Source: Streptomyces sp. NBC_01235
GTDB lineage: Bacteria > Actinomycetota > Actinomycetes > Streptomycetales > Streptomycetaceae
Direction of reading: 5' to 3'
Assembly (NCBI RefSeq): GCF_035989285.1
Contig: NZ_CP108513.1
Location: 4,960,001 to 5,024,000 of the forward strand
DNA: 64,000 nt
The notes under the pieces are model-generated. The model did not search any database. It was not told where the DNA came from and worked only from the letters and a program-made list of their open reading frames with translations. Below, in pieces: positions 12,555 to 61,011 of the stretch (position 1 is its first letter; each line of letters begins with the position of its first letter). Position numbers and translations under genes: made by a program.

Positions 12555-12627
12555 GCCTTCGTAGCTCAGGGGATAGAGCACCGCTCTCCTAAAGCGGGTG
12601 TCGCAGGTTCGAATCCTGCCGGGGGCA
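12555..12627 (+). tRNA. tRNA-Arg, anticodon CCT
   Basis: The 73-nt gene folds as a cloverleaf: acceptor GCCTTCG with CGGGGGC (two G-U type pairs), D arm GCTC...GAGC, anticodon stem CCGCT/AGCGG with loop CTCCTAA, and T arm CAGG-TTCGAAT-CCTG. The anticodon CCT reads AGG, a rare codon in Streptomyces. CCA is not encoded. Its 3' part is the attachment core for the tandem islands downstream. Confidence 0.93.
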
Positions 12628-12628
12628 C
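12586..12628 (+). repeat. att1: tRNA-borne attachment core of the island array
   Basis: The 43 bp from the anticodon loop of tRNA-Arg to 1 nt past the gene, beginning CTCCTAAAGCGGG and ending CCGGGGGCAC, recur without change at 32353-32395 and 60969-61011. Direct repeats of a tRNA 3' half are the classic mark of tyrosine-recombinase integration. Confidence 0.93.
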
Positions 12629-12646
12629 AGCGCGTTACGCCGCTGA

Positions 12647-12666
12647 CCTGGGGTTTCCTCCCCAGG
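12647..12666 (+). terminator. Hairpin downstream of tRNA-Arg / att1
   Basis: CCTGGGG pairs with CCCCAGG around a 6-nt loop, 20 bp after the tRNA. It is a likely tRNA terminator. Similar hairpins follow att2 and att3. Confidence 0.6.
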
Positions 12667-12923
12667 GAGGCGCCCTATTCGGCCTCGGACTCGTCGTCCG
12701 GGGCCGTTTGCGTGAGCGGACGGAGAGTTGATCTCCCGAATACCGCCCAACGGATCAGCATCATCCGGCACGGACTCCGGACTGGGATACTCCTCGCCGT
12801 CGGGCTCGGGCTCCGCTTCGGGAGCGGTGTTCTCGGAGGTGGCGCGGGCGCGCGGTACGAGCCGGGCGGGGGTCTGTCAAACGAGCGGCCCTGTCTCATA
12901 TTCGGTGGTGACGGAGCGTGCCG

Positions 12924-13172
12924 CTATCCGAGGAGGATGCGGTGGCGAAGAAGGGTGAAGCCTGCTCGTCCGTGCATCTGGCGCGCGATCCGCTTGGTCT
13001 TGGTGTTGACGCCCTCGGTGGGGCCGTTGCTGTAAGGAAGCGTGAGGGCGGCGTTTGCGGCGTCGCGGTCTCGTTCTAGACCTCGTGCGAAGGCATGCAG
13101 GTGGGGCAGGTCGGCGCCGCGGACCTGGACGATCCAACGTGAGAGCGCGTCGGATGTCGGCGTGAGGTGCAA
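12924..13172 (-). pseudogene. ISL3-family transposase, C-terminal fragment
   Basis: About 82 residues match the end of ISL3-type transposases, with the signature YSNGPTEGVNTKTKRI followed by ARQMHGRAGFTLLRHRILLG. The preceding roughly 400 residues are absent, and the fragment abuts the stop codon of the next gene at 13190. The region from 12667 to 12923 holds no supported gene; GGTCTGTC and CATATTCGGTGG near 12871-12907 look like the residual IS end. A matching N-terminal ISL3 fragment lies at 60367-60717, at the far end of the tandem island. Confidence 0.8.
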
Positions 13173-13189
13173 GGAGCGGGGCGAAGTCC

Positions 13190-14290
13190 CTAATAACTGC
13201 CGACGCTTTCCCGGATCACGCTATCGCTGGCGCGCAGAGCCGCCGTCAGCTCTCCTCGCAGCTCGTCCGGGAGGATCCCAGCACCGAGGGCGCAGGCGCG
13301 CACCAGCGCGCGACAGTCCTGCACTTGCCGGTCCGTGGCGATCTCGGTGAACAGAGGATGAGCCAAGTTCTCGCGGGCCGCGTAGCCGTCTTCGGCGTCC
13401 GTCGTCCTGCGGTGGAGGTCCTTGACGATGCGGTGCGCGGTGAGCGCCCCGGCGGAGCCGATCGCGTCGAGGACTGTAAGTCCGAGCCGGGTGTCGAAGA
13501 CGGTCATCCCAGGTTCGGTCTTCCTTCCGAGGTAGGCCGTCACCAGGTCCGCCATGTGGCCGTCGATCGGCTGCCCGACGTCGCGGCGGCATAGAACGGT
13601 CAGGCATGCCGTGACGGCTTGCTCCCACGGATCCCCGGGCATCGTGTCGGCAAGGAGGACAGCTGCCCACGCCGTGTCCCCCGCAGCGAGGGCGGCGAGC
13701 ACGGCGACCTGTCGACCGTCGAGCATCCGCTTTCCGATGCCATGGTGGACTTCGATGTGCGCCAGCGCCTCGGCCCATCGCCCCTCGGTGGTGAGGGTGC
13801 GCGTGCCGTCTGCGAGGAGGACGCGCCACAGCCATGCGCGAACCTCCTGGCGGTCTTCACCGGTCGCAGTGAGGTCCGCAGGTACGTTGACGCCCTCGAA
13901 CCGGGCGGCTGTGCCCGCCTCGACGGCCTTGTACAGGTTGAGGAGTCGCAGACGGCCCTCATCGGCGTGGCCGGCGCGGATCTGGAGGCGAGCGAGATTG
14001 ACGACCGGTTCAAGTCCTCGAATCGCGCTCATGCCGGGGAGGGGGCAGGCGTGGAGGTAGGCGGCGGCGTGCTGGTGGCACATCTCGCGGGCGAGGTCGG
14101 GGAGGTCGAGGTCGGAGGCGATGAGCGCGGCCTGGTTGTAGACGGCCGATGCGAGCCCCTGGTCGGTCTCTTCCACCGCAGTGTCGGCCAGATCGACGAG
14201 TGCCCTTACGCGTGCAGGCAGGGGCAGGCAGGCGGGGCGGAATCGGGCGACGAGCGGGAAGCGCTGGGCTATGGGGCCGTGCGGGTCCAT
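13190..14290 (-). CDS. Helical-repeat protein of unknown function, last gene of the lanthipeptide operon
   Basis: 366 residues from the ATG at 14290 (MDPHGPIAQRFPLVARFRP). The sequence is almost entirely alpha-helical with TPR-like pairs (ASAVYNQAALIASDLDLPDLA, then NLARLQIRAGHADEGRLRLLNLYKAV). No catalytic motif is seen. It follows the methyltransferase gene on the same strand with an 89-bp gap, so it may be co-transcribed. I recall similar proteins beside Streptomyces regulatory and RiPP genes but cannot assign a role. The frame extends 23 codons further upstream; the chosen start has GGGGGA before it. Confidence 0.7.
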   Translation of the reverse strand: MDPHGPIAQRFPLVARFRPACLPLPARVRALVDLADTAVEETDQGLASAVYNQAALIASDLDLPDLAREMCHQHAAAYLHACPLPGMSAIRGLEPVVNLARLQIRAGHADEGRLRLLNLYKAVEAGTAARFEGVNVPADLTATGEDRQEVRAWLWRVLLADGTRTLTTEGRWAEALAHIEVHHGIGKRMLDGRQVAVLAALAAGDTAWAAVLLADTMPGDPWEQAVTACLTVLCRRDVGQPIDGHMADLVTAYLGRKTEPGMTVFDTRLGLTVLDAIGSAGALTAHRIVKDLHRRTTDAEDGYAARENLAHPLFTEIATDRQVQDCRALVRACALGAGILPDELRGELTAALRASDSVIRESVGSY

Positions 14291-14379
14291 GGATCCCCCG
14301 GGGTCGAGAGTGAGGACTGCTGAAGCGACGGTGCCCGCCAGCCGTGTGCCGACGGGCACCGTCCGCTACGCGTGGGGCG

Positions 14380-16461
14380 TCATCGCCAGTCGACGAGGAT
14401 GCGGTTCAGCGGCGTGTCGAGGGCGAAGAGACCCGGGCGCCGCTCGATCTGAGGGGCGTCGAGGGGCTGGATCTCGAACGTGGCCTCACGATCTCGGTAC
14501 TCCCTGTCCCAGGTACGGATGGTGTCGGCGACCTTCGCGGCCAGCTCGTCGCCGCCGGGGCCGTGGCCGATGACGCCGAACTCCCAGAGCTTGCCACCCT
14601 CGGGAGTCTTCTTCTTCGACAGGCGCCGGGCGAGATATGTGACGGCACCCTTGTCGACGACCGCAGTCGACGAGGGGTAGGGGTCCTCGGTGAGCAGAGT
14701 GCCCTTGGCGCTCTGGGGGAACAGCATCCGGATCAGACCGGAGGGCAGGGAGCAGGTGACGAACAGTTCCATCCACTCCGGCGACTCCATGGCGCGGACC
14801 GTCATGCCGGTCCACTCCTCGGTGCGCGGCTGGTCAAGTACGCCCGCGAGGGCATCGGCGTCGATGTTGAGCCCGGCGGGGGCCTGGAGTCGTACGGCGC
14901 TGTCCGTACTGAGAGGGATCACTCGGCGGTCGTCGTCGGCGATGCCCCGCCGAAGCGGCATGAAGGTGTTCATCTCGCTGCCGAGGGACGCCCACCGGCC
15001 GTCGCGCTGCTCGTAGGCGATGGAGCGGGAGACGGTGCCCTTGAGGCGCTGGGGGACGAGGAGCCGACCGCCGGGCGCGAGCTGCTGCAGCCAGGCGTGC
15101 GGTACCCCGTGCGCGCCGACGGTGGCGATGATCCGGTCGTACGGCGCTCCTTCGGCGTAGCCGAGGGCCCCGTCGCGGGTCACGGCCTCGACGTTGGTGA
15201 TTCCGGCGGCGGCGAGGTGCGTGCAGGCACCCTCCACGAGGTCGTCGTCGACGTCGAGGGTGGTCACGTGTCCGTTCTCGCCGACCAGGTGAGCGAGCAG
15301 ACCAGCGTTGTAGCCGGTTCCGGCACCGAGTTCGAGGATGCGCTCGCCGGGCTGGGCGTCGAGCTGGTCCAACATGAGGGCGACGACGCCCGGCTGAGAG
15401 GCACAGGAGATGGACGTGCCGTCGGTGTCGTACTTGATGTGCACCGGTGCGTTGGCGTAGGCGTCTTCGAGCGACGCCTCGGGCACGAACACGTGGCGGG
15501 GCACGGTCCGCAACGCGGTCTCGACGGCGGGCGTGCGGGCGTGTCCGTCCGCACGGAGCTGGTCGACAAGGACGTTGCGGAGGCGCTCGGCGTCCGCCGT
15601 GGGGGTGGTGATCGTGTCGGTGTTCACCGCGCTGACGCTATCGATGTCCGCCGTTGCCCCGGTGGGCGACTCGGTGTGGTCACTCGTTCCCATGACTACC
15701 TCTCGTGCGATGTGGGACAGGGCGCTCTGGTCGTCCCGGAGGAGACCGGCGCGGTTGGCGTGGAAGATCACGTGGTGGGCGATGACGGCTCGCAGACCGC
15801 GGGTGAGGGCGCCGCGGCCCGCGAGGTCGGCGAGCGTGGCTCCCGCCCGTTCGAAGGCGGTCACCCATTCCTCGTGCGCGTGGAGTGGGCCACCCAAGCG
15901 GCAGAGGCTGTGGGCATCAGCGGCCATGAGTTTCCGCATCGCCGGAGCCAGTTCGGCGGCTCGTTCGGATGGTGGTGGATTGGCGGCCGGTCGAAGAGCT
16001 GCGACCTTCGCCCATACGTCGCCCTGTTCGAACCAATCGAGTCCAGCACCGCGCATCATGACGCTCGCCAGCAGGACGGCGGTCTCCCGGCGTCCCAAGT
16101 GCATCGGGCTCAGCTTGTAGGTGAGCAGGTGGCGGGAGTCGCTGTGGAACAGTTCGTGGGCTGCGTCCATGGCCTCCGGGCCGCCGAACGTGTCGGTCTC
16201 GGGCTCGTAGATGCAGGGCAGGCACGACACGGCCACGCCGTCGCCGATGAGATCGCTCAGGAGCGACTCAATGGCTGGTGAGGGCTTGTCGGCGAGGTAA
16301 CGCAGCGGCCAGGGCTGCTTGTTCATGAACCACCAGCCGGTGAGCTGCCCGTCGGCCTCGGCCTCAATCAGGGCGGGGCCGAGGCGTTCGACGATGGTGC
16401 GCCGGGCAATCTCGCGGTCGACGAAGGTGATGTTGTGCTGCTGCCAGCGGTCGGGAGGCAT
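14380..16461 (-). CDS. SpaB_C / protein-isoaspartate methyltransferase fusion (methyltransferase, FxLD system)
   Basis: 693 residues in two parts. Residues 1-260 resemble the thiopeptide-type/SpaB_C domain (WQQHNITFVDREIARR, then ERLGPALIEAEADGQL and WWFMNKQPWPLRY), which in LanB enzymes performs glutamate elimination. Residues about 300-690 are a PCMT-like O-methyltransferase with the SAM loop ELGAGTGYN near residue 377 and the upstream signature VPRHVFVPEASLEDAYAN. This architecture is that of the FxLD-system methyltransferase, expected to methylate an Asp of the modified peptide. AAGGA lies 6 nt before the start; lanC ends 21 bp upstream, so the genes are one operon. Confidence 0.87.
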   Translation of the reverse strand: MPPDRWQQHNITFVDREIARRTIVERLGPALIEAEADGQLTGWWFMNKQPWPLRYLADKPSPAIESLLSDLIGDGVAVSCLPCIYEPETDTFGGPEAMDAAHELFHSDSRHLLTYKLSPMHLGRRETAVLLASVMMRGAGLDWFEQGDVWAKVAALRPAANPPPSERAAELAPAMRKLMAADAHSLCRLGGPLHAHEEWVTAFERAGATLADLAGRGALTRGLRAVIAHHVIFHANRAGLLRDDQSALSHIAREVVMGTSDHTESPTGATADIDSVSAVNTDTITTPTADAERLRNVLVDQLRADGHARTPAVETALRTVPRHVFVPEASLEDAYANAPVHIKYDTDGTSISCASQPGVVALMLDQLDAQPGERILELGAGTGYNAGLLAHLVGENGHVTTLDVDDDLVEGACTHLAAAGITNVEAVTRDGALGYAEGAPYDRIIATVGAHGVPHAWLQQLAPGGRLLVPQRLKGTVSRSIAYEQRDGRWASLGSEMNTFMPLRRGIADDDRRVIPLSTDSAVRLQAPAGLNIDADALAGVLDQPRTEEWTGMTVRAMESPEWMELFVTCSLPSGLIRMLFPQSAKGTLLTEDPYPSSTAVVDKGAVTYLARRLSKKKTPEGGKLWEFGVIGHGPGGDELAAKVADTIRTWDREYRDREATFEIQPLDAPQIERRPGLFALDTPLNRILVDWR

Positions 16462-16482: not shown

Positions 16483-17757
16483 TCAAGCGATGAGGAGGCA
16501 TGCGTCCCAGGCGGACCGGGGTGGTGCCGCGGTGCTGGGCGAGAGGAGGGCCAGGGCTATGCCCGCGGCGCCGTCGAGTAGGCCGGGGCCGCCCTTCTCG
16601 TCCTGAATGAGCGCCGTGGCCATGAGTTCGGGGTCGATTCCTGGTGGGATGACACCAGCCAGGAGGGCCGGGATAGCGGCGCGGAGTTGGCCCGCGGTCG
16701 AGGGGTGGGCGTCGTCGGCTGTACGCGTGACAGCGTGGGCGAGGCCGGCGAAGCCGTGGCAGAGGCCGTTGTCCGTCGTGGCCTTCAGCTGCTCGGGATC
16801 GGTGAGGGCTGCCACGAGCGCGTTCTCCGCGTCGATCTGGCGGCTGGTATCGCCGAGGGCGAGCGCGGCAAATTGCTGGGCGCGGGCGAGGCCGGCGGTG
16901 CCGTAGCACCAGGAGGGCCGCCTGGGTGCTGACGAGCCGAGACGCCCCCTGCGCAGCTCGCCCTGAGTGACCCAATACGGCCAGACCGGCCCGCCGTCGG
17001 CCTTCTCCTTCCAGCGGTCCAGCCAGGCCAGGATGGTGCGCAGTGCCGTGTGGTGCCCGTCGGTGATGGAGCCGCTCCGAGCTGCGAGGGCCAAGAGCGC
17101 GAGCACGCCGCCGATGCCGTGGGCCATACCGGTGTTGGCGTGCCCAGCGGGGAATCGGTCGTCCGGGCTGCCGGAGGGCCCGGTCTCCGCCCACCAGCCC
17201 GGCAGAGTCTCGCCGTGGTGGGTGATCGGTTCGGTGAGGCGCACGCAGTAGTCGAGAACGGCGCGCATCGTGGAGCTGCCGGGGTTTCGGCGCAGTAGGT
17301 AGGCGCCGTATCCGGTGAGGCCCCGGACGGCGTCGAACTCGGCGAGCTGCGGTAGGCGTTCGGCGTCGATGCGGCGGTGTGCGGCGTCGAGACGGCGTCC
17401 GACGTCGACTGCGATCTGTCCATCCATCGCGTCGAGGGCGCGCTGGTAGGAATCGGGAAGGTGGTCGGCGGCACAGGTCAGGGCGTGGGCGAAGGCGGGC
17501 ACTCCGTAGAACGGGTGGCTGTCCGGGCCGCTGGTGAGCGGCTGCCGGGAGGCGGCGGCGAGCCAGTCGTGGGCGCGGTGCCACGGGCCGCGGCCGTTAG
17601 CGGCCAGCTCGATGTGCAGGAGCGCGATTCCGGGCGGGCCGTATGCGAGATGTTGTCGGTCCGAGGACAGCAGCCTGGAGCCGAGGGGCACGGTGTCGGG
17701 GTCGGCAAGCCGGGTGGCGATGGCGTCGACCAGGCCAAGCGTGGGGTGGGGGGTCAC
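16483..17757 (-). CDS. LanC-type lanthipeptide cyclase
   Basis: 424 residues. LanC enzymes are zinc proteins that add Cys thiols to dehydroalanine/dehydrobutyrine to close thioether rings. Two zinc-ligand motifs are present: PSWCYGTAG (Cys near residue 284) and NGLCHGFAG (Cys-His near residue 333), plus the Gly-rich repeats GMAHGIGGVLALLAL and GLLDGAAGIALALL that shape the alpha/alpha barrel. The GTG start at 17757 overlaps the lanB stop (GTGA), indicating translational coupling; the open frame further upstream lies inside lanB. Confidence 0.9.
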   Translation of the reverse strand: MTPHPTLGLVDAIATRLADPDTVPLGSRLLSSDRQHLAYGPPGIALLHIELAANGRGPWHRAHDWLAAASRQPLTSGPDSHPFYGVPAFAHALTCAADHLPDSYQRALDAMDGQIAVDVGRRLDAAHRRIDAERLPQLAEFDAVRGLTGYGAYLLRRNPGSSTMRAVLDYCVRLTEPITHHGETLPGWWAETGPSGSPDDRFPAGHANTGMAHGIGGVLALLALAARSGSITDGHHTALRTILAWLDRWKEKADGGPVWPYWVTQGELRRGRLGSSAPRRPSWCYGTAGLARAQQFAALALGDTSRQIDAENALVAALTDPEQLKATTDNGLCHGFAGLAHAVTRTADDAHPSTAGQLRAAIPALLAGVIPPGIDPELMATALIQDEKGGPGLLDGAAGIALALLSPSTAAPPRSAWDACLLIA

Positions 17758-20700
17758 GACGCCGTCCTCCTGGTGCGGGCGGTCCAAGCCAGGGCAGCGG
17801 CGCGCGCCAGGTAGAGGCACACCTCTTCCTCCGGGAAGTTCACGGCGACGTGGCGCACGAAGTGAACGTGCAGCAGGGAGGTCAGGACGTCGTCGACGGC
17901 GATGCCCTGGGTGTCCGGGCCGGGCAGGTGCGGCCGGTACGCGGCGAGTGCCGCTTCCCGGTCGGCCCATCCGGACACGATGGCGTCTCCGCCCGGGACG
18001 CTACGCAGGGCTGACCAGTCGTCGCTCGGGTCGGCGAGCCGTACGGCCTCGGTGAACTGCGGGCGTGGAACGGGCACGGGGGCTGTCCGCGGGACGTGGT
18101 CGATCAGCCACTTCATTCCGGCCTCAATGGTGCCGAGGAACGCGGAGGTGATGGCGACCGTGTGGGCCGCTACCAGCGTGCGCGGTCCGGGACGCTGTGG
18201 CTGCGTGAGCTGGGCCAGGATGGCGCACGAGTCCGCCCGGAACACATTCTCGGCTGCCTCCCATGCGGAGCCGGAGCCCCAGCGACCCATCTCCCGGTAG
18301 GAGGTGGGATAGCGCAGGTCGGCCAGCAGGCCGATGCTTCGTAGCTCGTCGGCCCAGGCGCTTACCGTTCGGGCCGTATCGGCGAAGGCTTCCGGGTCGG
18401 GGAGGGCGATGCGTACGCGGAGGTGTTGGTCTGGGTCTCGAAAGCGGATGAACCACCACGGCGGGTTGCCGAGTTGTTCGAGGAGGCCGGGCAAGTGCCG
18501 GGAGAGCACGACGTCTTGGCGGCGGGGGTCGCCGTACAGGGCGGCCAGAAGGACTGAGGAAGAGGCAAGCGTCTGAGTCTGGGCCGCAGACAGGGCACGG
18601 GCCCGGTCGGGGGCGGGCAGTGGCGGCCATGCCGACGGCCTCGTTGCTTTGAGGGGCACTACGACCTCGTGGGCTCGCCCGCCGCACCAGCCGTACGCCT
18701 CTGGTTCTGGGGCCTCGACGAGCACGGCCATGCGCGAATGGTCGAGGTGTCTGCGCAGGAACGCATGGTGGCCGGCCTCGTCGAGGTCGAGGAAGAGGCG
18801 CCGGTCGTCCTCTACGAGGTAGACACGGCGCGGCAGCCTCCGCCGGGCACGCCAGTCGGCGAGCGCAGCATCCCACTCCTCCCGAGGGCGGACGTGGCCG
18901 GGCAGTTCGGGTGCTTCCAGCCGCCAGCGTGCCGGGGCCAGCATGATGCGGCCGTACCGCAGACGTGGGAGGAACGGCATGGCCGCTGCGGCGCCCCAGT
19001 CGAAGACGGTGACCTGCGCGCACTGGGCGCGGGACAGTTCGGTGAGGAACCGCACCAGTGGCGGGGTGTGGGTGCGCAGGTTCAGCGCGTGCATCCCGAC
19101 AGCCTCCACGCGGTGGCATCGCTCGGGGACGGCGAGGTACATGCGGCGGCCGTCGCACCCCACAGCCAAGTCCTCCGGGGTTAGGACGGTGTCCTGCGGG
19201 GCGCGGTGCTCCTGAAGGCTGATCACGATGGGCAGAACCTGTGGGGAGTGGGTGACGTGGGCACTCTCGGGTAACAGGGGCGGGAAAGAGAGCTGCGCGG
19301 GCATGGTGTTGCCGTCTGCGGCCGGGAGGTCGGCAAGCTCTGTGACCAGGGCCTCCCGGTCGGCGGGGGCCAGCACGCTGAGGAATCGGCCCGTGGAAAC
19401 GCCGGCGCCACGGGACACGCTCACAGCCTCCAGCCGGAACCGCCCGCGCTGCAACTCCTCCAGGCTGGCCGCGTGCACCCGCACCCCGATCTCCAGGTGC
19501 GGCGGCAGCCGAGGCTCGTCGGGACCCACGTCCAGGGCCTCAATCTGTTCGTCCGTGAGGATCACTTCGTCACGGCCGTCGAGCGCAGCGGCCTGAGCCA
19601 GCCGTACGAGGGTGTCATCCCGAGCGGAGACACGGGGCCTGCGTGCGCCGGCCGGAGCGCCGGGGTAGCCGTCGGGATAGCCGGTGCCGCTGTCCGCGAC
19701 GACCTCTGCGAGCGGCACCATCGTGCCGATGCCGTAGCGCTCGTAGAACCGCTGGTGGTACTCGTTCCAGGCGGCGGTCCCGTACGGGCGGATGCTCAAG
19801 CGGGTCAGGATGAGAGCGGCGCGCTCGATCTCTCGGGCGACCGCTTCCGGCAGAACGATCCGTGCGTCCAGGCGGAGGTCGAGCGCGACGGGGTGGCGAC
19901 GCAGGCCGGGGACGAGGTCTCGCATCCGCGCCGCGACGCGGACCCGGCCGCCGCGCGTGGCGCATTCCTCCAGGCCCGCCCGGACCGCGTGGAGTTCGCG
20001 TACGGTCTCCGCGACCGGGGCGAGACTTCCAGCGTCGATCGCGTTGAGTTGGCCCATCAGATACCCGAGGGCGTCAGTCTCGGTGCTCGGAGCGTGCAGG
20101 CCCGCGATCAGTACCCGCCGCCGGATCAGCTCCGCCAGCAGTTGACGCGCCTTCTCGGAACTGGCCTCGGGGAACTCAGCCTGGAGCTTGTCCACGAGGG
20201 TGCCGAGCCGGATCGGCAGTCGGGTCGAGGCAAGGACCGTGCGCACCGGTCCGGTCAGGGCCAGAGACGCCTCGACCGCGCGAGTCCGGTCGTCCTGGAC
20301 GTCGGGCTGGAACGGCACGATGAGCCGGTCTCCCCGGTACGTCACGGTGTTGTTGATGACGACCGGCAGCCGTTCGAGGAGGTCCGGGCATGACTCCAAC
20401 CGTGCAACCAGAGCCGCCAGCCACTCTGCCCCCGCGCGGCCGACGGCCACGTGCTCCTCGCCCCAGTCAGCCCGCGCCTGCGGGCCGAACTCCGCGGTGG
20501 CCACGCCGGCGAACAGGCCGAAAGGCGTAGCCCGGTGCAGGGCCCGCAGCAGGTAGCGGGCCACGGACAGCGCCGTGCGCTGCACATCCCGGAGGGCAGG
20601 ATGCTCAGCCGTGCACAAGGCCCCTACCTGCGCGGCCAGGACCGGGCTGGAGTGCTGGAGCGCCTCGGCGACGTCCTTGTTCGCCCAGACCGCGCGTAGC

Positions 20701-20837
20701 CACGTCACACGGGCAGACGAACCACTGGGCGAGCGGTCATCGAGGTCAGGGCATGGAGGAATCGGCAGCGAGGGCCGGGCCACGGCGCGCACGAGAGCGG
20801 TGGAACCGGTGCGGAACGTTGCGGGCGGAACAACCAC
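17754..20837 (-). CDS. Class I lanthipeptide dehydratase LanB with C-terminal SpaB_C domain
   Basis: 1027 residues. Residues 1-680 are the Lant_dehydr_N glutamylation domain, which uses Glu-tRNA to activate Ser/Thr (motifs YLLRALHRATPFGLFAG near residue 92, and RPYGTAAWNEYHQRFYERYG). Residues about 740-1010 are the SpaB_C elimination domain (NPPWWFIRFRDPDQHLRVRI). It probably dehydrates the precursor encoded just upstream. The GTG at 20837 is chosen because GGAGG lies 6 nt before it; the TTG one codon earlier is too close. The methyltransferase gene carries a second SpaB_C-like domain, so elimination chemistry may be duplicated. Confidence 0.92.
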   Translation of the reverse strand: MVVPPATFRTGSTALVRAVARPSLPIPPCPDLDDRSPSGSSARVTWLRAVWANKDVAEALQHSSPVLAAQVGALCTAEHPALRDVQRTALSVARYLLRALHRATPFGLFAGVATAEFGPQARADWGEEHVAVGRAGAEWLAALVARLESCPDLLERLPVVINNTVTYRGDRLIVPFQPDVQDDRTRAVEASLALTGPVRTVLASTRLPIRLGTLVDKLQAEFPEASSEKARQLLAELIRRRVLIAGLHAPSTETDALGYLMGQLNAIDAGSLAPVAETVRELHAVRAGLEECATRGGRVRVAARMRDLVPGLRRHPVALDLRLDARIVLPEAVAREIERAALILTRLSIRPYGTAAWNEYHQRFYERYGIGTMVPLAEVVADSGTGYPDGYPGAPAGARRPRVSARDDTLVRLAQAAALDGRDEVILTDEQIEALDVGPDEPRLPPHLEIGVRVHAASLEELQRGRFRLEAVSVSRGAGVSTGRFLSVLAPADREALVTELADLPAADGNTMPAQLSFPPLLPESAHVTHSPQVLPIVISLQEHRAPQDTVLTPEDLAVGCDGRRMYLAVPERCHRVEAVGMHALNLRTHTPPLVRFLTELSRAQCAQVTVFDWGAAAAMPFLPRLRYGRIMLAPARWRLEAPELPGHVRPREEWDAALADWRARRRLPRRVYLVEDDRRLFLDLDEAGHHAFLRRHLDHSRMAVLVEAPEPEAYGWCGGRAHEVVVPLKATRPSAWPPLPAPDRARALSAAQTQTLASSSVLLAALYGDPRRQDVVLSRHLPGLLEQLGNPPWWFIRFRDPDQHLRVRIALPDPEAFADTARTVSAWADELRSIGLLADLRYPTSYREMGRWGSGSAWEAAENVFRADSCAILAQLTQPQRPGPRTLVAAHTVAITSAFLGTIEAGMKWLIDHVPRTAPVPVPRPQFTEAVRLADPSDDWSALRSVPGGDAIVSGWADREAALAAYRPHLPGPDTQGIAVDDVLTSLLHVHFVRHVAVNFPEEEVCLYLARAAALAWTARTRRTAS

Positions 20838-20925: not shown

Positions 20926-21105
20926 TCAGGCGACGTTGGTGGTGCAGGCGCCGCAGGTGGACCCGCAGTTGTCGTCGGTCAGGTTGACCAGGCCGGCCGG
21001 GTCGGCGATCTCGACGAGGGAGACGTCCAGGTCGAAGCCGTCCGACACCCCGGGGATCTGCGGGCGTACTTCGGTGCGGCTGGGAACTACGGTGCTGCGC
21101 GTCAT
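20926..21105 (-). CDS. FxLD-type lanthipeptide precursor peptide
   Basis: 59 residues. The leader contains the diagnostic F-D-L-D at residues 24-27 (SDGFDLDVSL). The C-terminal region, VNLTDDNCGSTCGACTTNVA, has three Cys (47, 51, 54) with Thr43, Ser49, Thr50, Thr55 and Thr56 as dehydration candidates, enough for up to three thioether rings. Asp44 or Asp45 could be the methylation target. The start ATG at 21105 has GAGGAG upstream at good spacing. It is encoded directly ahead of lanB on the same strand. Processing site and activity are unknown. Confidence 0.9.
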   Translation of the reverse strand: MTRSTVVPSRTEVRPQIPGVSDGFDLDVSLVEIADPAGLVNLTDDNCGSTCGACTTNVA

Positions 21106-23680: not shown

Positions 23681-24216
23681 CCACGGCGCCCGCCATCGAA
23701 CTGCGCACGTTCACGACTCTCGACACCGCCCGCGGCGACCTCCTCGACGTGTACGCCGACGTACGCGCCCCACTCCTCCACCTGCCGAACTACGCCGTCA
23801 CCGCGTTCGGCGAGCGCCTGGACCGGCACGGCACCGAGCCGGGCTTCACGGCCGTCCTCGCGTACGCGGACGGCCAACCAGTCGGCTACGCCTACGGCAA
23901 CACCATCGAGCACGGCGACCGCTACTGGCAGCGCACCAGCCCGACGCCGGCCGAGAAGTACACCGAGCGTCCGGCCGTGGCCCTGAAGGAGATCGGCGTC
24001 CGGCCGACCTGGCGGAAAACCGGCACCGCCCGCCGCATCCACGACGCCCTCCTCGCCACCCGCGACGAGCCGTACGTCACGCTCATGGTCAACCCGGCCG
24101 CCGGCGACGGAAAGGTCCACGCGCTCTACCAGTCGTGGGGGTACGAGGGCATCGGGCAGAGCCAGCCGTCACCGGCCTCGCCGGTACTCACAGTCATGAT
24201 CCGAGCCAGCCACTGA
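23677..24216 (+). CDS. GNAT family N-acetyltransferase
   Basis: 179 residues. The GNAT core is visible: beta strand VLAYADGQPVGYAYG, then ALKEIGVRPTWRKTGTARRIHDALL, where the acetyl-CoA loop is R-K-T-G-T-A, and a late YQSWGYEGIGQ. ATG overlaps the TGA of the regulator gene, so translation is coupled. Substrate unknown; it could modify a cluster product or confer resistance, but nothing in sequence shows this. Confidence 0.82.
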   Translation: MTTAPAIELRTFTTLDTARGDLLDVYADVRAPLLHLPNYAVTAFGERLDRHGTEPGFTAVLAYADGQPVGYAYGNTIEHGDRYWQRTSPTPAEKYTERPAVALKEIGVRPTWRKTGTARRIHDALLATRDEPYVTLMVNPAAGDGKVHALYQSWGYEGIGQSQPSPASPVLTVMIRASH

Positions 24217-32395: not shown

Positions 32396-32426
32396 CGTGC
32401 CTGACCAGGCATGATGCATCAGAAAG

Positions 32427-43273: not shown

Positions 43274-43567
43274 GTGGGTTCCTCCGGTGTGCGGTGGGTG
43301 GGTACTGCAGTGCGGAACGCATGCGGGTGGCCGCGGCCGCGACGTATCGCGTTGCGATGAGAAGGGATCGGGAGAGATCGGATGCGTGGCGGTGGTACGG
43401 CGACAGGGCGCTCCACAGCGCGTCGCGCAGTTGTCGCTTCCACTCGGAAGCAGTAACAGGTAAGCACATCGCTGAAAGCACCGTCAAACAGCTTGACGGG
43501 CTTGATGGCTGCTGTAATGTGTTTACTGTTCACTATCGACGGCCCGAGAGGTGCAGGACCCCACGCC

Positions 43568-49191: not shown

Positions 49192-49193
49192 CC

Positions 49194-52100
49194 ATGAGCC
49201 CCATCCACACGGAGTCCGCTTTCGGTGATGCCATCGTCGCCGCCATGGTCGAGCGTGGCTGGCGCGAGGCACGCCCGCAGGACTACCGGGCCGATCTCGG
49301 TCTGGACACCAACGAGTTGTTCACCTTCATCGGGGCAACCCAGCCCGACGAGTGGAGCGAGCTGCTCACCGTCTACGGCGGCGACCCGAACGAGGCTCAG
49401 CGCGGGTTCGCCGGTCGCCTCGACCAGGCCATCGCCACCAACGGGCTCCTCGACGTGCTCCGTAACGGCGTCAAGGACCGGGGCGTCCTTCTCCGCGTTG
49501 CCTACTTCAAGCCGAACCTCGTCGCCCATGACTCCGTGCTCGACGGTTACCAGGCCAACCGCCTCACCGTCGTCCGCGAACTCGAGTACGCGACGAAGCA
49601 GGCCGACTGGGGCAACCGGCTCGACCTCGCCCTCTTCCTCAACGGAATCCCCGTCGCCACGGCCGAGTTGAAGAACCCGCTGACCAAGCAGGGGGTGGAG
49701 CAGGCCAAGGAGCAGTACCGCACCGACCGGGACCCCACCGAGCTGATCTTCACGCGTCGGGTCGTCGCGAACTTCGCCGTGGACCCGGACCTAGTCTTCG
49801 TCGCCACCCAGCTCAAGGGCAAGAACACCCGCTTCCTCCCGTTCAACACTGGCTCCAACGGTCCCGGTCAGCCGGGCGGCGCCGGCAACCCGGACCCGAC
49901 CGCCTTCGGCACGTACGCGACCTCGTACCTCTGGGAGCAGGTCTGGCAGCCGGACAACTGGCTGGACCTGCTCCAGCGGTTCGTGCACCTGCACAAGAGC
50001 AAGACGCCCGGCGGCGGCACGACGAAGACGATGGTCTTCCCGCGGTTCCAGCAGTGGGACGCGGTCAAGAAGCTCACCGCGCATGCCGCAACGCACGGCG
50101 CGGGACACGACTACCTGGTCATGGCCTCGGCCGGCTCGGGCAAGTCGAACACCATCGGCTGGCTCGCGCACCGCCTCAGCGACCTGCACACCCCGACCGA
50201 CCCGCGCGAACTCGACGCCGAGGCCATGGCCAAGGGCCTCAAGCCGGGCGTGCCGGTCTTCGACAAGGTCATCGTCATCACCGACCGCCGCAACCTGGAC
50301 GCGCAACTCCGGGAAACGGTCGGCAACTTCGAGCAGACCGCAGGCCTCGTCGTGAAGATCGACGAGAAGCACGGGGCGAAGGGCGAGCAGCTCGCCAAGG
50401 CCCTCTCCCGCGACACCGGGAAGATCGTCACCGTCACCCTGCACTCCTTCCCGGCGCTGCTCGACTACCTCCAGCGCAACCCCACCGAGATCCAGGGCAG
50501 CCGCTTCGCGATCATCGTGGACGAGGCGCACTCCTCGCAGTCCGGCGACGCCGCCACCGCTGTACGGTCCGCCCTGCGTGACCTCGGTCTGGACTCCGAC
50601 TCGGACGACGCGGGCGCGACCACGGTCAAGGCCACGGCCGCCGCCACCCTCGGCGAGCAGCTCAAGAAGCGGGCCGAGCAGCGTTCCCGCGCCGCAAACC
50701 TCTCCTACTTCGCGTTCACCGCTACCCCGAAGGCCAAGACCCTCGAACTCTTCGGCACGCTCCAGGACATCGACGGCAAGGCGACCTACCGGCCCTTCCA
50801 CACGTACTCCATGCGGCAGGCGATCGAGGAGGGCTTCATCCTCGACCCGCTGCGCAACTACGTCACGTACAACACGTACTGGAAGCTGGTGAACCAGAAC
50901 CCCGACGAGCGGGAGGTCGACCCGTCGAAGGCTAACGGCCTGCTCGCCCGGTACGCGCTGACCCATGACTCGACGGTCGCCCAGCACGCCCAGGTGATCG
51001 TGGAGCACTTCGTGGCGCACAGCCGGGGCCGTCTCGGCGGACGGGCCAAGTCGATGGTGGTGGCCGCCTCGCGGCAGTCCGCCGTACAGATGGCGCGCGC
51101 GATCAAGAGCTACATCAAAGACCGGGACTACGACACCAAGTTCCCCGACCTGGGTGTCCTCGTCGCCTTCTCCGGCTCGCTCACCGTCGACGGCGAGGAG
51201 ACCACCGAGCCCAAGGAGAACGGCGGGCTGTCGGAGAGCGCGCTGCCGAAGGCGTTCGCGTACACGCGTGCCGACGACAAGGCCGCCCGAGCCGGCGGTG
51301 CGGGCCAGCGTGAGTACAGGATCCTGGTCGTGGCGGAGAAGTACCAGACCGGGTTCGACCAGCCGCTGCTGACGACGATGTACGTCAACAAGACGCTGAC
51401 CGGCATCTCCGCCGTCCAGACCCTGTCCCGGCTGAACCGGACCGCCGAGCGCAAGAACCAGGCCGACCTCGCGGTACTGGACTTCGTGAACGACGCCGAG
51501 GACATACAGGAGTCCTTCCGCCCGTACTTCGAGGAGGCGAATACCCTCCCCTCCGACCCCAACCTGCTCTACACCGCGCAGAGCCGGGTCATGCAGGCGG
51601 CGATCCTGTCCGGGCAGGAGATGGACGAGTTCGCCGCCGCGTACTTCGCCGCCAAGGAGAAGGCGGCAGGCTCGCAGTCCAAGTGGGAGAAGCTGCACGC
51701 AGAGCTGTACCGGCTGCTCTCCCCCGCCGTCGCTCGCTTCACGCCCCTGCTCGAAAGCGAGGACGAGGACGACCAGGAGACGGCGGAGGGCTTCCGCGCC
51801 GACCTCAACGACTACGTCAGGAAGTACGGCTTCCTCGCGCAGATCGTCCCCTACCGGGACGCCGAGCTGGAGCGGCTGCACCTCTACGGCCGCTACCTCC
51901 TCAACCGGCTGCCGCGCCGCGCGGACGGCGGCGTGGACATAGGGGAGGTCGACCTCAGCCACATGCGGGTGGAGAAGACGGGCGAGTACGACGTCTCCCT
52001 CACCGCCGAGGGGCCGACGACGATGCAGGGCTTCGGCGATGGCTCGGGCGGTGCGAAGGAGGCGGAGAAGTCGCTGCTCTCCCAGTTGATCGACAAGTTC

Positions 52101-52394
52101 AACGAACGCTTCGGCACGGAGTTCACCGAGCAGGACGTCATCCGCCCGTTCGAGGAGGCCAAGGCCGACCCGAAGGTGCGGGCGGCGGCCGTCGTCAACG
52201 ACGAGGACAACTTCGGCCTCGTCTTCGACAACGTCTTCGCGGACAAGATGGCCGACCACATCGACACCATCGCGGGCATGGGCCGCCAGTACTTCGGCCC
52301 CGACAAGGGCTTCAAGTCCAGCCTGGACCGCAGCGCCCGCAAGGCCGCCTGGCGGATGATCCGCCGCGAAGAGGGCCTGGACGACGACGTCTGA
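49194..52394 (+). CDS. hsdR: Type I restriction endonuclease subunit
   Basis: 1066 residues. The N-terminal PD-(D/E)xK nuclease is present (RLDLALFLNGIPVATAELKN; Glu-x-Lys near residue 158). The SF2 motor has Walker A MASAGSGKSNT near 312, FAIIVDEAHSSQSG, YFAFTATPKAKTLELFG, and the late motifs YQTGFDQPLLTTMYVNK and QTLSRLNRT. A C-terminal helical domain docks on HsdM/S. It translocates and cuts unmethylated DNA. It appears intact. Confidence 0.95.
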   Translation: MSPIHTESAFGDAIVAAMVERGWREARPQDYRADLGLDTNELFTFIGATQPDEWSELLTVYGGDPNEAQRGFAGRLDQAIATNGLLDVLRNGVKDRGVLLRVAYFKPNLVAHDSVLDGYQANRLTVVRELEYATKQADWGNRLDLALFLNGIPVATAELKNPLTKQGVEQAKEQYRTDRDPTELIFTRRVVANFAVDPDLVFVATQLKGKNTRFLPFNTGSNGPGQPGGAGNPDPTAFGTYATSYLWEQVWQPDNWLDLLQRFVHLHKSKTPGGGTTKTMVFPRFQQWDAVKKLTAHAATHGAGHDYLVMASAGSGKSNTIGWLAHRLSDLHTPTDPRELDAEAMAKGLKPGVPVFDKVIVITDRRNLDAQLRETVGNFEQTAGLVVKIDEKHGAKGEQLAKALSRDTGKIVTVTLHSFPALLDYLQRNPTEIQGSRFAIIVDEAHSSQSGDAATAVRSALRDLGLDSDSDDAGATTVKATAAATLGEQLKKRAEQRSRAANLSYFAFTATPKAKTLELFGTLQDIDGKATYRPFHTYSMRQAIEEGFILDPLRNYVTYNTYWKLVNQNPDEREVDPSKANGLLARYALTHDSTVAQHAQVIVEHFVAHSRGRLGGRAKSMVVAASRQSAVQMARAIKSYIKDRDYDTKFPDLGVLVAFSGSLTVDGEETTEPKENGGLSESALPKAFAYTRADDKAARAGGAGQREYRILVVAEKYQTGFDQPLLTTMYVNKTLTGISAVQTLSRLNRTAERKNQADLAVLDFVNDAEDIQESFRPYFEEANTLPSDPNLLYTAQSRVMQAAILSGQEMDEFAAAYFAAKEKAAGSQSKWEKLHAELYRLLSPAVARFTPLLESEDEDDQETAEGFRADLNDYVRKYGFLAQIVPYRDAELERLHLYGRYLLNRLPRRADGGVDIGEVDLSHMRVEKTGEYDVSLTAEGPTTMQGFGDGSGGAKEAEKSLLSQLIDKFNERFGTEFTEQDVIRPFEEAKADPKVRAAAVVNDEDNFGLVFDNVFADKMADHIDTIAGMGRQYFGPDKGFKSSLDRSARKAAWRMIRREEGLDDDV

Positions 52395-55767: not shown

Positions 55768-57357
55768 GTGCCGCAGGAGGCGATCTCCGACCGTTACGAA
55801 CTCCTGGAGGAGCTCAGCCACGGCGGCATGGGCGACGTGTGGCGCGGCTACGATGCCGTGCTCGACCGGCCCGTCGCCGTGAAGCTCATCCGGCAGGCGT
55901 CGGTCACCTCCCCACAGCTGGCCGAGGAGTTCGCCAAGCGCTTCCACCGCGAGGCCCGCATCACCGCGCGCATCCAGCACCCTGGTGTGCCGCAGGTGTA
56001 CGACGCGGTGCTCGACACGTCGTACGAGCGGCTGTTCCTGGTGATGGAACTCGTCGACGGCGTACCACTGTCCGCCTACCTCGACCCCGGCCGCCCCCTG
56101 CCCGTCAGCTGGGCGGCCGCCGTCGCCGCGCAGATCGCGACCGTGCTGTCGTACGCGCACGACGTGCCAGTCATCCACCGGGACCTCAAGCCGGGCAACA
56201 TCCTCGTCGCACGCGACGGCACCGTGAAGGTCCTCGACTTCGGCATCGCGGCGATTCTGCGCACCGACGTCACCAAGCTGACCGCCACCGGCAGCCCCAT
56301 CGGCACCCACCAGTACATGTCGCCCGAGCAGGTCCGCGGCGGACGCATCACCCCGCAGACCGACCTGTACGCGCTCGGCTGCGTGCTGCACGAACTCCTC
56401 AGCGGGCGCCTCGTGTTCGAGGCGGAGAGCGAGTACCTGCTGATGTACCAGCACGTCAACGCCGCCCCCACACCCCTGCGACAGCTGCGGCCCGACGTCC
56501 CCGAGGCACTGGAGGAGCTGGTCCTGCACCTCCTGCGCAAGGCGCCCGAGGCGCGGCCCGCTGACACGCAGGAGGTGTATGCGCGGCTGCTGCCGTTCCT
56601 GCCGCCGCCAGGCCAAGAGCCCGGCGCGGCGGATGCCGGGCCGGCCGGCGCACCCGACCCGACAGGCGTGTTCCGGCACCCTTTCGCGCCCCGCGCCCGC
56701 GCCCAGGCCCCTGCACCCAGCGGTTCGACGCCGACAGCCGTCCTCCCGGGGGCCCAGCCGGTGCCCGTCCCCGCCCAGCTGCGCGAGGACATCAAAGAGG
56801 CGTACGCCCACTCCGACGCCCTACTGGAGGAGGAGCGGTTCACGCAGGCCGCCGAAGTTCTCGGCGAGGTCATCGAACCCGCGGCCCTCGCCCTCGGCTC
56901 CGAGAGCAAGCAGGTCCTGGCGCTGCGCCGCCAGCGAGCAGCGATCCGCCTCCTCGGCGGCGACTACCGGGCCGCCCTGCCCGAGTTCGACGCCCTCGCC
57001 GACGCGTACGCCCGCATCGCCGGACCCACCAGCGAGCAGGCCCGCGCCTGCCGCGCCCAGGCGGCCCGCTGCCGCGCCGAACTCGGCCAGGTCACCGACG
57101 CGCTCGCCGCGCTCCAGGGCGTGTTGAACGTCGTGCGGGCCGTAGACAGCGACGTGAGCGAGGAAGCCGTAGAGCTACGGCACAACATCGGGATGCTGCT
57201 GCTCGCCCAGGGCCGGGCCGTCGAAGCCCGGCAGGTCCTCGAACCGCTCCACCAGGACATGTGCATGGTGTTTGGCCCCGACGACGAGATGACCGTCGAG
57301 ATCGCCGAGGCGCTGGCCCTGATCCGCCTCGACCTGGACGGCGACGCCGCCGGGTAA
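55768..57357 (+). CDS. Serine/threonine protein kinase with TPR-like C-terminus
   Basis: 529 residues from GTG at 55768. Kinase motifs are complete: Gly loop LSHGGMGDVW, VAVK (Lys39), HRDLKPGN (His137 onward), DFG, and SPEQVRGG in the activation segment. After a Pro/Ala-rich linker (residues 285-350) comes a TPR-like domain (EAYAHSDALLEEERFTQAAE and later repeats). There is no transmembrane helix, unlike PknB types, so it is a soluble kinase. It is followed 78 bp later by a UvrD-like helicase on the same strand, suggesting a functional pair. Confidence 0.92.
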   Translation: MPQEAISDRYELLEELSHGGMGDVWRGYDAVLDRPVAVKLIRQASVTSPQLAEEFAKRFHREARITARIQHPGVPQVYDAVLDTSYERLFLVMELVDGVPLSAYLDPGRPLPVSWAAAVAAQIATVLSYAHDVPVIHRDLKPGNILVARDGTVKVLDFGIAAILRTDVTKLTATGSPIGTHQYMSPEQVRGGRITPQTDLYALGCVLHELLSGRLVFEAESEYLLMYQHVNAAPTPLRQLRPDVPEALEELVLHLLRKAPEARPADTQEVYARLLPFLPPPGQEPGAADAGPAGAPDPTGVFRHPFAPRARAQAPAPSGSTPTAVLPGAQPVPVPAQLREDIKEAYAHSDALLEEERFTQAAEVLGEVIEPAALALGSESKQVLALRRQRAAIRLLGGDYRAALPEFDALADAYARIAGPTSEQARACRAQAARCRAELGQVTDALAALQGVLNVVRAVDSDVSEEAVELRHNIGMLLLAQGRAVEARQVLEPLHQDMCMVFGPDDEMTVEIAEALALIRLDLDGDAAG

Positions 57358-59571: not shown

Positions 59572-59746
59572 CTCAAGGGGTGCAGGGTCGCGTAGCGAGG
59601 CAACAGCAGATGAGTGCGACATGCAAATAAATGGGGAACGATCTTCCCCTACCTGGGAAGGCAGCGCAGAGAGCCCGAGGATCCCCAGCTCACTGGACCA
59701 CCCGGGCACGGTAGGGCTACTCGCCGCGTAACCGGCGACGCGGGTG

Positions 59747-60350
59747 TCAACGTTCACGCCGCAGCGAAACCCGCACATTCGCATCGTCATCACGATCAAG
59801 GAACAGGCCCGACCCTTTAATGCTGGTGAGGTACGGAACGCGCACGCCTGCATCGAGAACCTTTGGCTCCCCTGTGCCAGTCGCCAGGTCCAGCTCCGCG
59901 ACGACCGCCTCCGAGCCGCTGGCCGCCGGCTTCCCCAGGACCGCCCCGTAAGCCGTGCCGTCATCGCGGATTGCGGCGAGCGCGATCGTCTTGCGGTCGC
60001 CGTCACCCTCCAGACAGGTGCCCTTGCCTCGCTTCAGATCAAAGACAACTGGTCCGGCTGCCAGGTAGCGGCCGTCCGGCGAAGTAATCACGGGGTAGTC
60101 GCGAGCTTCATCGGAGTCCGCGACGTCATGCGCACAGATCATGCTGGCCCGGAGCTTGCCCGTTCGTACATCGTGCACCGCCCACAGCGGGTCGTTCGGA
60201 GCGCCGAACTTGCCGCCCGTCGACCAGCCGACGAGAAGGTTGCCGTCGGCGACGCCGTACGCATCGCCATTCCAGGAACCGACGATGCCTGTCTTCGCTT
60301 CGAGGCCGTGCGGGCGCACGTCGTCACTGAACCAGCGGCCCGGGATGCCG
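59747..60350 (-). pseudogene. C-terminal beta-propeller fragment, N-terminus lost
   Basis: About 200 residues of WD40/PQQ-like repeats (KTGIVGSWNGDAYGVADGNL, YPVITSPDGRYLAAGPVVFD). The frame continues rightward only into unrelated sequence of the ISL3 fragment, so the start and the usual membrane-anchored front half are gone. The junction lies at about 60350-60380. The 59572-59746 gap holds no gene. Confidence 0.65.
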
Positions 60351-60366
60351 AAGCCTCCGGCATCAC

Positions 60367-60717
60367 CGCCACCCGTTCCAGCACCGTCTGCAGCCCGGCG
60401 CTGCGTCTGCCGTGCCGGAACGTCAGTCCGTCGACCTGTTCGGCGAACGTCGCCTGCAAGCAGCCCGGTTGAGAGCAGCGGAACCGCCGGACCCGTAACT
60501 CGATCAGCGCCGGACGGCCGCCGACCGCGGTGTCGGCAAGCCGACGAACGTACCGGCTGTGCACCCGGGCCGACGCCGTTCCACACGCCGGACAAGCAGC
60601 CTGTTCCGCAGCCGTCCGGGCCCGCACGACCACCAACTCGCCGTCGGGTATGACACTTTCGACCACAACACCTTCGACCTGGTGGAACCACAGGTCCTGG
60701 AGGAGTACATCAGCCAC
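60367..60717 (-). pseudogene. ISL3-family transposase, N-terminal fragment
   Basis: About 115 residues from the ATG at 60717 match the ISL3 start: MADVLLQDLWFHQVEGVVVE, zinc-finger CPACGTASARVHSRY and CSQPGCLQATF. Homology stops near VLERVAV, where the beta-propeller debris begins. The rest of the transposase is absent here; a C-terminal ISL3 piece lies at 12924. Confidence 0.8.
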
Positions 60718-60832
60718 GGCCGTTCATGATCGCGGTTGTGGTGACCCTCCGTGGCTCCGGCACGGAAAGTGATCCAGAACCAGGATTCAGCCGCCGCCGA
60801 CACCGTTCCCAGGGGCTTCTGAGGGCCTCATA

Positions 60833-60851
60833 TGGGAACGTCATGGGAACG
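60833..60851 (+). repeat. Direct repeats TGGGAACG left of att3
   Basis: Copies at 60833 and 60844, each preceded by A, 118 bp left of att3. They mirror the pair right of att2. The rest of 60718-60968 holds no supported gene. Confidence 0.55.
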
Positions 60852-60968
60852 GAAGGCCGAGTAAGGGCAGGGAAAGATCAGGCCGGGACGGAAGATCGCG
60901 ACCTGCTGACCAGCAGAAATGGTGAATTCAGGGAAAGGCCACCATAGACAGGTGAGCCTCTAGTGTCT

Positions 60969-61011
60969 CTCCTAAAGCGGGTGTCGCAGGTTCGAATCCT
61001 GCCGGGGGCAC
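60969..61011 (+). repeat. att3: third copy of the tRNA-Arg attachment core
   Basis: Identical to att1 and att2 over 43 bp. It shares two further bases on the left (CT before CTCCT) with the tRNA copy but not with att2. No tRNA 5' half precedes it. Confidence 0.93.

Follow-up and report, generated by a model that had tools for sequence, protein, structure and literature searches.

Analysis of a 64,000-nucleotide window from Streptomyces sp. NBC_01235 (bases 4960001-5024000 of a single 11.09-Mb contig; coordinates below are on the scale of this window) revealed a tandem array of islands at a tRNA-Arg(CCT) gene. Our analysis suggests that the array probably grew by accretion of site-specific islands, most of them non-autonomous, which have kept their ends and are still spread by an integrase of the same family. 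Comparable island stacks exist across the genus, many other species having them at the same tRNA sequence.

The 43-bp 3' half of the tRNA gene, hereafter the core of the attachment (att) site, occurs exactly and on the plus strand at three places in the window (Table 1), and 100 dinucleotide shuffles gave a chance expectation of 0.00 for copies with up to three mismatches. A complete tRNA-Arg(CCT) was found around the first core only; cores 2 and 3 have no tRNA 5' half. An earlier note, made from the letters of this DNA, had described these three copies, the missing 5' halves and the segments of 19.8 and 28.6 kb between the cores, and in all this it was confirmed. Its array ended at the third core, which proved too short: four further copies with one to four mismatches follow downstream of the window at 69491, 71454, 91031 and 92328, and the array reaches 92370. 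The whole genome holds six core copies with up to three mismatches and a seventh with four. The array of about 80 kb consists of six segments, A to F, of 19.8, 28.6, 8.5, 2.0, 19.6 and 1.3 kb, and degraded core traces lie beyond it near 94112 and 114160. The hairpins that the note had placed after every att copy are strong after att1 (z -4.8) and att2 (z -5.4), but after att3 the hairpin lacks significance (z -1.0) and is interrupted by a transposase gene, the other hairpin half having one mismatch to the pattern; a weaker hairpin follows the copy at 69491 (z -2.7). The repeat pairs reported inside both ends of island B (segment B) were recovered as ATGGGAACG, which has five matches in the window against 0.48 expected.

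The 48 kb of segments A and B was not met as contiguous chromosomal core DNA, in agreement with the note: 13 genomes with a single near-exact core match A and B only over short end pieces (blastn, about 13 kb downstream of the tRNA gene). The right-hand resumption of such DNA was not located when downstream flanks of 16 genomes were compared with about 140 kb downstream of the tRNA gene. These flanks gave only short blastn matches (plus strand, those above 100 bp listed), with pieces of up to 483 bp in another comparison. The stretch 106865-111608, considered as a right-hand boundary, had only short weak matches in 13 genomes among the matches listed. A clean empty tRNA-Arg(CCT) site was not found in the genomes compared.

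A total of 295 genomes of the genus, the source genome included, were used for the survey. The core with up to three mismatches was identified in 281 genomes; counted genome-wide and not all in one array, at least two copies were present in 145 genomes, at least three in 59 and at least five in 13. The array sample was formed of stretches from 56 genomes, which were selected in part for their high number of copies, with 165 cores of up to nine mismatches and 106 segments between consecutive cores (from 43 genomes). No integrase open reading frame (ORF) was found in 76 of the 106 segments, fragments were found in 14 and a full-length integrase in 16; among segments below 4 kb, 45 of 49 had none. 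Because multi-copy arrays guided the choice of the sample, the figure of 76 in 106 should not be read as a rate for the genus. Genes were called with our own script, and integrases were identified with an iterated profile started from one fragment in the window. Missed tyrosine integrases were considered and rejected, because on our reading PF00589 matches in seven genomes add none to the segments called integrase-less, although this family misses small remnants such as that in island A. Serine recombinases as the missing mover were likewise rejected: PF07508 matches in 27 genomes include none within the array stretches, by our reading of the coordinates.

Clustering of the 90-bp flanks of the cores (score threshold 44; 99.5% of the null at 23-24) revealed several families of ends. 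To the right of the core, family L1 occurs in 25 genomes, L2 in 24, L3 in 17 and L4 in 13; to the left, R1 occurs in 16 and R2 in 19. The repeat TTGCGTGAGCGG (up to two mismatches) is present at +79 in 35 of 41 L1 ends and at about -127/-138 in 21 of 23 R2 ends, and TGCAGCACACAT is present at +56 in 13 of 16 L4 ends and at -119 in 31 of 32 R1 ends. A TTTGACATC-type repeat joins L2 with R4 or R5 (18 of 30 L2 ends; 5 of 5 in each right family), and the repeats of the earlier note belong to L6 and R6 (4/7 and 3/3 ends). As a control, the best 12-mer common to L1 and shuffled R2 ends scored 0.17-0.22 in three shuffles; the non-cognate pairs L3/R2 and L3/R1 scored 0.30 and 0.31. From their position and pairing, the family-specific repeats are putative arm sites of integrases. 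A TGACCT/AGGTCA-type motif lies near the core at 12644-12649 and beside many other cores, in several end families and on both sides.

Cognate ends also remain paired on the same segment. L1 and R2 occur together on 17 of 71 segments against 6.7 expected, and on 14 of the 51 integrase-less ones against 5.6 expected; none of 20,000 permutations was as high in either case. The match of integrase-less L1 ends to the parent elements described below stops at 84-91 bp in 14 of 22, and that of R2 ends starts at 133-139 bp in 13 of 16 and at 124-125 bp in the others. Over the same 22 L1 ends, column conservation stays mostly at 0.8-1.0 as far as about column 91, and soon after it is mostly 0.3-0.5. This boundary is not merely a variable stretch, because alignments between parents continue far past base 91. 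Conservation of the 16 R2 ends declines less steeply outside the double repeat, to about 0.4-0.7. A rough count, with two candidates scored per genome and some matches of only 42-62 bases, gave R2 ends in about 58 of the 295 genomes. Of ten R2 places inspected, a core with up to four mismatches is present at four, a truncated core at one and nothing recognisable as a core at three (L250, L251, L254). At the remaining two, L252 (G080) and L253 (G286), the R2-type end is followed by the 3' half of another tRNA, read as tRNA-Thr(TGT), with 11 mismatches to the core.

Most full-length integrases of the array sample lie directly right of a core on the minus strand, and different left-end families accompany different integrases. 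A single integrase for all islands was rejected, as several integrase families are present in the sample. Of the accretion through one integrase specificity that the earlier note had inferred, site-specific accretion at tRNA-Arg(CCT) on a shared core stands, but the end families differ in both arm-like repeats and integrases. The truncated integrase beyond att3 exists as stated there; it is not the only one, a second remnant, related to another integrase family, being present inside island A (Table 1).

Scanning the genome collection with an L1-family integrase fragment identified 67 loci, of which 63 were examined (the other four are in metagenome-assembled genomes from outside Streptomyces). 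At 20 of the 63, a stop-to-stop integrase ORF of at least 400 codons ends 47-49 bp from an L1-flanked core. Twelve such genomes were searched for cores, and seven of them have exact cores at both ends of an element on one contig, 19-40 kb apart, with an R2 far end (scores 47-146). G321 may be an eighth, with six mismatches in its tRNA-side core; the far end could not be placed in G312, G314, G319 or G322. The five parents fetched whole contain no inner core, even with nine mismatches allowed. The backbone beside L1 in G313 consists of an integrase, a helix-turn-helix protein, DUF3631, DUF2637, MobC and a MobA-type relaxase, with MobC (PF05713) and Relaxase (PF03432) above cut-off. G311, G315 and G316 align over this backbone and G317 does so in part. 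With their own integrase between att sites and with relaxase and mobilization genes, the intact parents would be classed as integrative mobilizable elements (IMEs). An FtsK-type match was not found among ten parent proteins scanned, which are part of the genes of two elements.

Comparison of island A (segment A, 12586-32395) with the element of S. albus NRRL F-4971 (G311) revealed 88% identity at the left end (12586-12867, blastn), 93.7% over 11 kb of lanthipeptide cargo (13195-24218) and 80% at the right end (32214-32395). The backbone of this parent (positions 498-8413, 7.9 kb) has no blastn counterpart in island A, and 24219-32213 of island A has no match in the G311 element. S. tauricus (G315) holds the same cargo at 89.7-90.9% identity. 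This cargo is an FxLD lanthipeptide system, its precursor (TIGR04363) and methyltransferase (TIGR04364) both being above cut-off; together with the defence-type genes found, it bears out the antibiotic-like peptide locus and defence gene sets of the earlier note. The integrase remnant is the recognisable part of the backbone in island A and its only integration or transfer gene; relaxase and MobC are absent among the ten island proteins scanned. Judged from these alignments, island A is an IME that has been stripped of its integrase-relaxase backbone and that comes from a lanthipeptide-carrying parent. Segments D and F and island B are tied to parents by their ends only.

The following mechanism is proposed. 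An island would be cargo between a left end, made of the core, a terminator-like hairpin and, about 40-90 bp inside, arm-like repeats, and a right end, in which arm-like repeats about 95-140 bp inside precede the core. Several integrase families would use the one 43-bp core and differ in their arm-like repeats. Parents of the island A family would be IMEs with the integrase gene beside the left end, and loss of the integrase-relaxase backbone would leave smaller elements that keep their ends. An integrase of the same family may then spread the stripped elements, in trans or by co-excision with a neighbour. Each left end would restore the 3' half of the tRNA gene and may supply a transcription terminator.

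In several cases, the homology between segments from different genomes has both its limits at cores. G196, G097, G069 and G124 share a cassette of 2.6 kb that carries a single DUF4041/T5orf172 gene. Its identity is 97.8-98.1% in five of their six pairs (the sixth was not run), against 81.8-90.1% for a marker gene in the same five genome pairs. The G124 copy differs only in its first 210 bp or so. The right flanks of this cassette differ in 6/6 genome pairs and the left flanks in 5/6, three of the left comparisons resting on 99 bp of G097. Cassette D (segment D) and its counterpart in G275 are 92.4% identical (marker gene 86.9%), with no match in the right flank and a match over 46 bp only in the left. 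In total, segment identity was above that of the marker gene in 9 of 11 pairs, not all of them independent. Identity above the marker, taken with mostly differing flanks, suggests that integrase-less cassettes were likely transferred between species after these had diverged.

Several observations weigh against continued spread of cassettes with cognate ends. Two of the 11 pairs (one of them integrase-bearing) were not above the marker gene, a single gene is a weak yardstick, and the array sample was selected for multiple copies. Mixed ends occur, as with L1-R1 in seven segments. The non-cognate pairs L1/R1 and L4/R2 scored 0.69 and 0.61 in the 12-mer comparison, through a different, inverted TGACC-type motif that is therefore part of the end sequence common to several families. 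Eight of the 22 integrase-less L1 ends, that of island A included, retain parent sequence over 108-553 bp. Next to the tRNA gene, full-length integrases are enriched (11/33 against 5/73, Fisher p 0.0009; G119 was assigned as tRNA-adjacent by hand), and core mismatches increase with distance from the tRNA (rho 0.54, n=107); both trends also fit ageing and decay in place. The source genome yielded no intact L1-family integrase. Its PF00589 matches number 19, of which only the remnant beyond att3 lies within the array, and by coordinates no other adjoins a core with up to three mismatches; the next-best counterpart of the L1 integrase lies elsewhere, in a 236-codon frame, with 50% identity. The local array may thus no longer be active.

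The alternative that survives best is movement in cis only, in which a tandem neighbour's integrase excises composite islands that include the cassettes, and the neighbour may later leave alone. We regard this as a serious possibility, if short of probable. Transfer of a cis-mobilizable element (CIME) in tandem with an integrative and conjugative element (ICE) is reported in the available parts of PMC5704250. G069 and G196 share a left neighbour of 576 bp (98.8% identity) beside the 2.6-kb cassette, and full-length integrases are present in some of the same arrays (e.g. G104, G124, G196). Against it, this cassette gave no match in the five remaining left-flank comparisons or in any of the six on the right. 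Nine integrase-less segments below 5 kb directly adjoin the tRNA gene: one (G124) is accompanied by a full-length integrase in another fetched segment, four have none in theirs and for four no other segment was fetched, although cis movement followed by loss of the helper still fits these cases.

Accretion with decay in place only, in which autonomous elements arrive, lose genes and remain as immobile relics, appears unlikely. Besides the two trends with distance from the tRNA gene, it would account for the integrase fragments in 14 of the 106 segments, for the remnant kept in island A and for the single-copy genomes, in 7 of 12 of which the tRNA still adjoins a left end from a recognised family. 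It does not lead one to expect that the parent match stops near the arm-like repeats in most L1 and R2 ends, that cognate ends stay paired, that near-identical small cassettes occur in different species with flanks mostly differing where compared, or that those nine small segments adjoin the tRNA.

Tyrosine integrases and tRNA sites are typical of prophages and of phage satellites, but an origin of the islands from either is very improbable, as the parent backbone carries MobC and relaxase and as no capsid or terminase family was found with Pfam among 50 proteins (30 of the window and 20 downstream; PHROGs were not searched and parent genes were partly scanned). The notion that the core copies are tRNA gene duplications or chance relics and not island boundaries can practically be discarded, since several cassette homologies begin and end at cores, island A matches its S. 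albus relative at both ends, the flanks on both sides fall into families with left flanks unlike the tRNA 5' half, and intact integrases adjoin such copies, against all of which stands one tRNA-like fragment called as a tRNA by Aragorn. That call (tRNA-Phe, 32330-32393) overlaps att2 and the R2 end and was taken as probably spurious, because the R2 end carries GGATTCGATCC, which is T-arm-like.

Beyond the accretion array itself, a wider proposal is offered tentatively, and we would not call it probable. The tRNA-Arg(CCT) gene of Streptomyces may be a genus-wide, integron-like exchange platform for cassettes of 1-20 kb, many with one defence, toxin-antitoxin or enzyme gene, whose arm repeats would address one of several integrase families and which a helper sharing the core would move in trans.

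Table 1. Positions of the tRNA gene, att cores, island ends and predicted genes in the window.
Feature	Position	Strand	Basis
Complete tRNA-Arg(CCT) gene, 3' half = att core 1	12555..12628	+	tRNA prediction (Aragorn)
att core 1, 43 bp	12586..12628	+	exact core search
L1-type left end of island A: hairpins and arm-like repeat TTGCGTGAGCGG at 12708-12719	12629..12719	+	end clustering, repeats, folding
L1-family tyrosine integrase remnant, 60 codons, one in-frame stop	12706..12885	-	67% identity to residues 166-225 of query fragment
389-aa protein in lanthipeptide locus, no family match	13190..14359	-	Pfam, PADLOC, NCBIfam
Lantibiotic dehydratase C-terminal domain fused to FxLD-system methyltransferase	14380..16461	-	TIGR04364, 445.5 bits, cut-off 320
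Lanthionine synthetase C-like protein (LanC-like cyclase)	16483..17757	-	Pfam
Lantibiotic dehydratase, LanB-like, N- and C-terminal domains	17754..20837	-	Pfam
59-aa FxLD-family lanthipeptide precursor	20926..21105	-	TIGR04363, 47.9 bits, cut-off 30
NsdA-family regulator	22397..23680	+	278 bits, cut-off 75
GNAT acetyltransferase	23677..24216	+	Pfam
Very large DUF4011-AAA (helicase)-MTES_1575 protein	24297..29942	-	PADLOC PDC-S37 1151 bits, Hhe 580 bits
R2-type right end of island A; arm-like repeats 32214-32225 (3 mismatches), 32225-32236 (1 mismatch)	32214..32352	+	end clustering, parent alignment
att core 2	32353..32395	+	exact core search
L6-type left end of island B: hairpin and ATGGGAACG pair 32467-32475, 32477-32485	32396..32485	+	end clustering, repeats
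IS4/5-type and Mutator-type transposase genes	33095..35334	+	Pfam
UvrD/HelD-HelR-like helicase, 1136 aa	36164..39574	-	Pfam; NCBIfam scores below cut-offs
SMC/LmuB-like ATPase	40039..42504	-	best PADLOC match LmuB, 77 bits
Type I-like DNA methyltransferase	43517..45808	+	PADLOC MTase_I, 1409 bits
Type I restriction-modification genes hsdM, hsdS, hsdR	45899..52394	+	Pfam, PADLOC
Ser/Thr kinase, PD-T4-6-like	55768..57357	+	PADLOC, 308 bits
R6-type right end of island B; ATGGGAACG pair 60832-60840, 60843-60851	60832..60968	+	end clustering, repeats
att core 3	60969..61011	+	exact core search
Left end of segment C read as L2-like (single in clustering), split by transposase gene 61081-62298; second hairpin half 62338-62357	61012..62357	+	
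Truncated tyrosine integrase, 178 aa, nearest in sample to integrases beside L2 and L9 ends	62388..62924	-	

Segments A, D and F have L1-R2 ends, B has L6-R6 and E has L6-R7; both ends of C are single in the clustering. No integration or transfer genes were found among the scanned proteins of island B. Its relative of the HelR/HelD RNA polymerase recycling helicases is encoded two genes from the SMC-like ATPase gene. Island proteins encoded at 30245-31902 and 52413-53777 have no match in Pfam, PADLOC or NCBIfam. Segment C carries an integrase remnant, transposase genes, a GH15-type gene and an alcohol-dehydrogenase-type gene, and segment E carries glycosidase, sugar-transport and LacI-type genes with one transposase gene. 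Segments D and F have one called gene each, neither an integrase: an AAA/DUF234 ATPase with a PADLOC PDC-S27 match in D, and a 152-aa protein of no known Pfam family in F. The Mutator-type transposase genes of segments B (34096-35334) and E (L012:7294-8532) both encode 412 aa and have near-equal Pfam scores. Segment E also contains a coreless inner R2 half-end (58 bases, 86%) at genome position 5048328-5048385 (88328-88385 on the window scale), perhaps the scar of an older boundary.

Cargo was scanned in 97 of the 112 ORFs called in 57 integrase-less cassettes below 7 kb, 15 apparent duplicates being left out. PIN-domain proteins (8 of 97) are the commonest among the families listed (25 of 123 Pfam families). 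Two of three PIN partner genes tested resemble RHH or Phd antitoxins, below Pfam cut-offs, and the third has no match; cassettes with PIN genes likely carry toxin-antitoxin pairs. Toxin-antitoxin cargo is abundant in integrons, and the small cassettes here probably share such cargo. Three GH11 xylanases were also identified. PADLOC matches at 1e-10 or better include PD-Lambda-1, AbiU, PDC-S27, PDC-S03, PDC-S57, mads_3 and IetS, and the one PD-Lambda-1 match is assumed to be the DUF4041/T5orf172 gene of the 2.6-kb cassette. Seven R2 cassettes (L070, L116, L123, L126, L085, L087, L020) contain a 188-aa ORF situated about 150-160 bp inward of their right end; one copy scanned alone belongs to the Uma2 family, and two members in the cargo set match Uma2.

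If the accretion reading is true, a large share of what varies at this locus in defence, toxin-antitoxin and natural-product genes would ride on elements invisible to searches keyed to integrases or relaxases, for which the conserved ends would be a simple search handle. The split between a core for site choice and arms for integrase identity would give a testable model for the origin and persistence of non-autonomous islands. It would also link a lanthipeptide cluster to a specific vehicle that two further species, S. albus and S. tauricus, carry intact. No account of integrase-less, arm-delimited cassettes at this tRNA throughout the genus came up in the literature searched, most subscription papers lying outside it.

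Comparison with known systems places these islands nearest to CIMEs, which, in the parts of PMC5704250 available, lack integration and transfer genes, keep attL and attR and accrete in tandem with ICEs. Elements of this kind, in tandem at one gene end, are what we observe: attL and attR come from the target gene, integration and transfer genes are absent in the scanned proteins of A, B, D and F apart from the remnant, and descent from an ICE or IME is indicated for island A, so that this island at least would be a CIME. Unlike the CIMEs described in those parts, several end families with their own arm-like repeats share one core here, cassettes may be as small as about 1 kb, and some of them recur across species. 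The Dehalococcoides ssrA islands, as excerpted from PMC3146451, likewise stand many in tandem at one RNA gene, bounded by repeats of its 3' end, and 15 of them have no integration module and were suggested to be CIMEs; according to the same excerpts they use a serine recombinase and the tmRNA gene, whereas tyrosine integrases, arm-like repeats and a tRNA gene are found here. In Streptomyces itself, the available text of PMC9513070 and PMC3218068 reports one to three actinomycete ICEs (AICEs) or defective AICEs in tandem at a tRNA-Arg gene, with different integrases and a remnant element, among them Sav3708 and Sav3728 of S. avermitilis. That tRNA-Arg may be another isoacceptor. The arrays resemble this accretion in their tandem elements with different integrases and differ from what these texts report in the relaxase and MobC of the one parent backbone scanned, in being larger and mostly integrase-less, and in their resolved ends. 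Integron cassette arrays and clusters of attC sites lacking integron-integrases (CALINs), as far as outlined in the portions of PMC11389934 at hand, are also small cargo units bounded by recombination sites without a recombinase of their own, but here the units are bounded by tRNA 3' halves with arm-like repeats, on which several phage-type tyrosine integrases act. Accretion and CIMEs are already known; the arm-delimited, multi-family, cassette-like and genus-wide form of them described in this study seems to be new.

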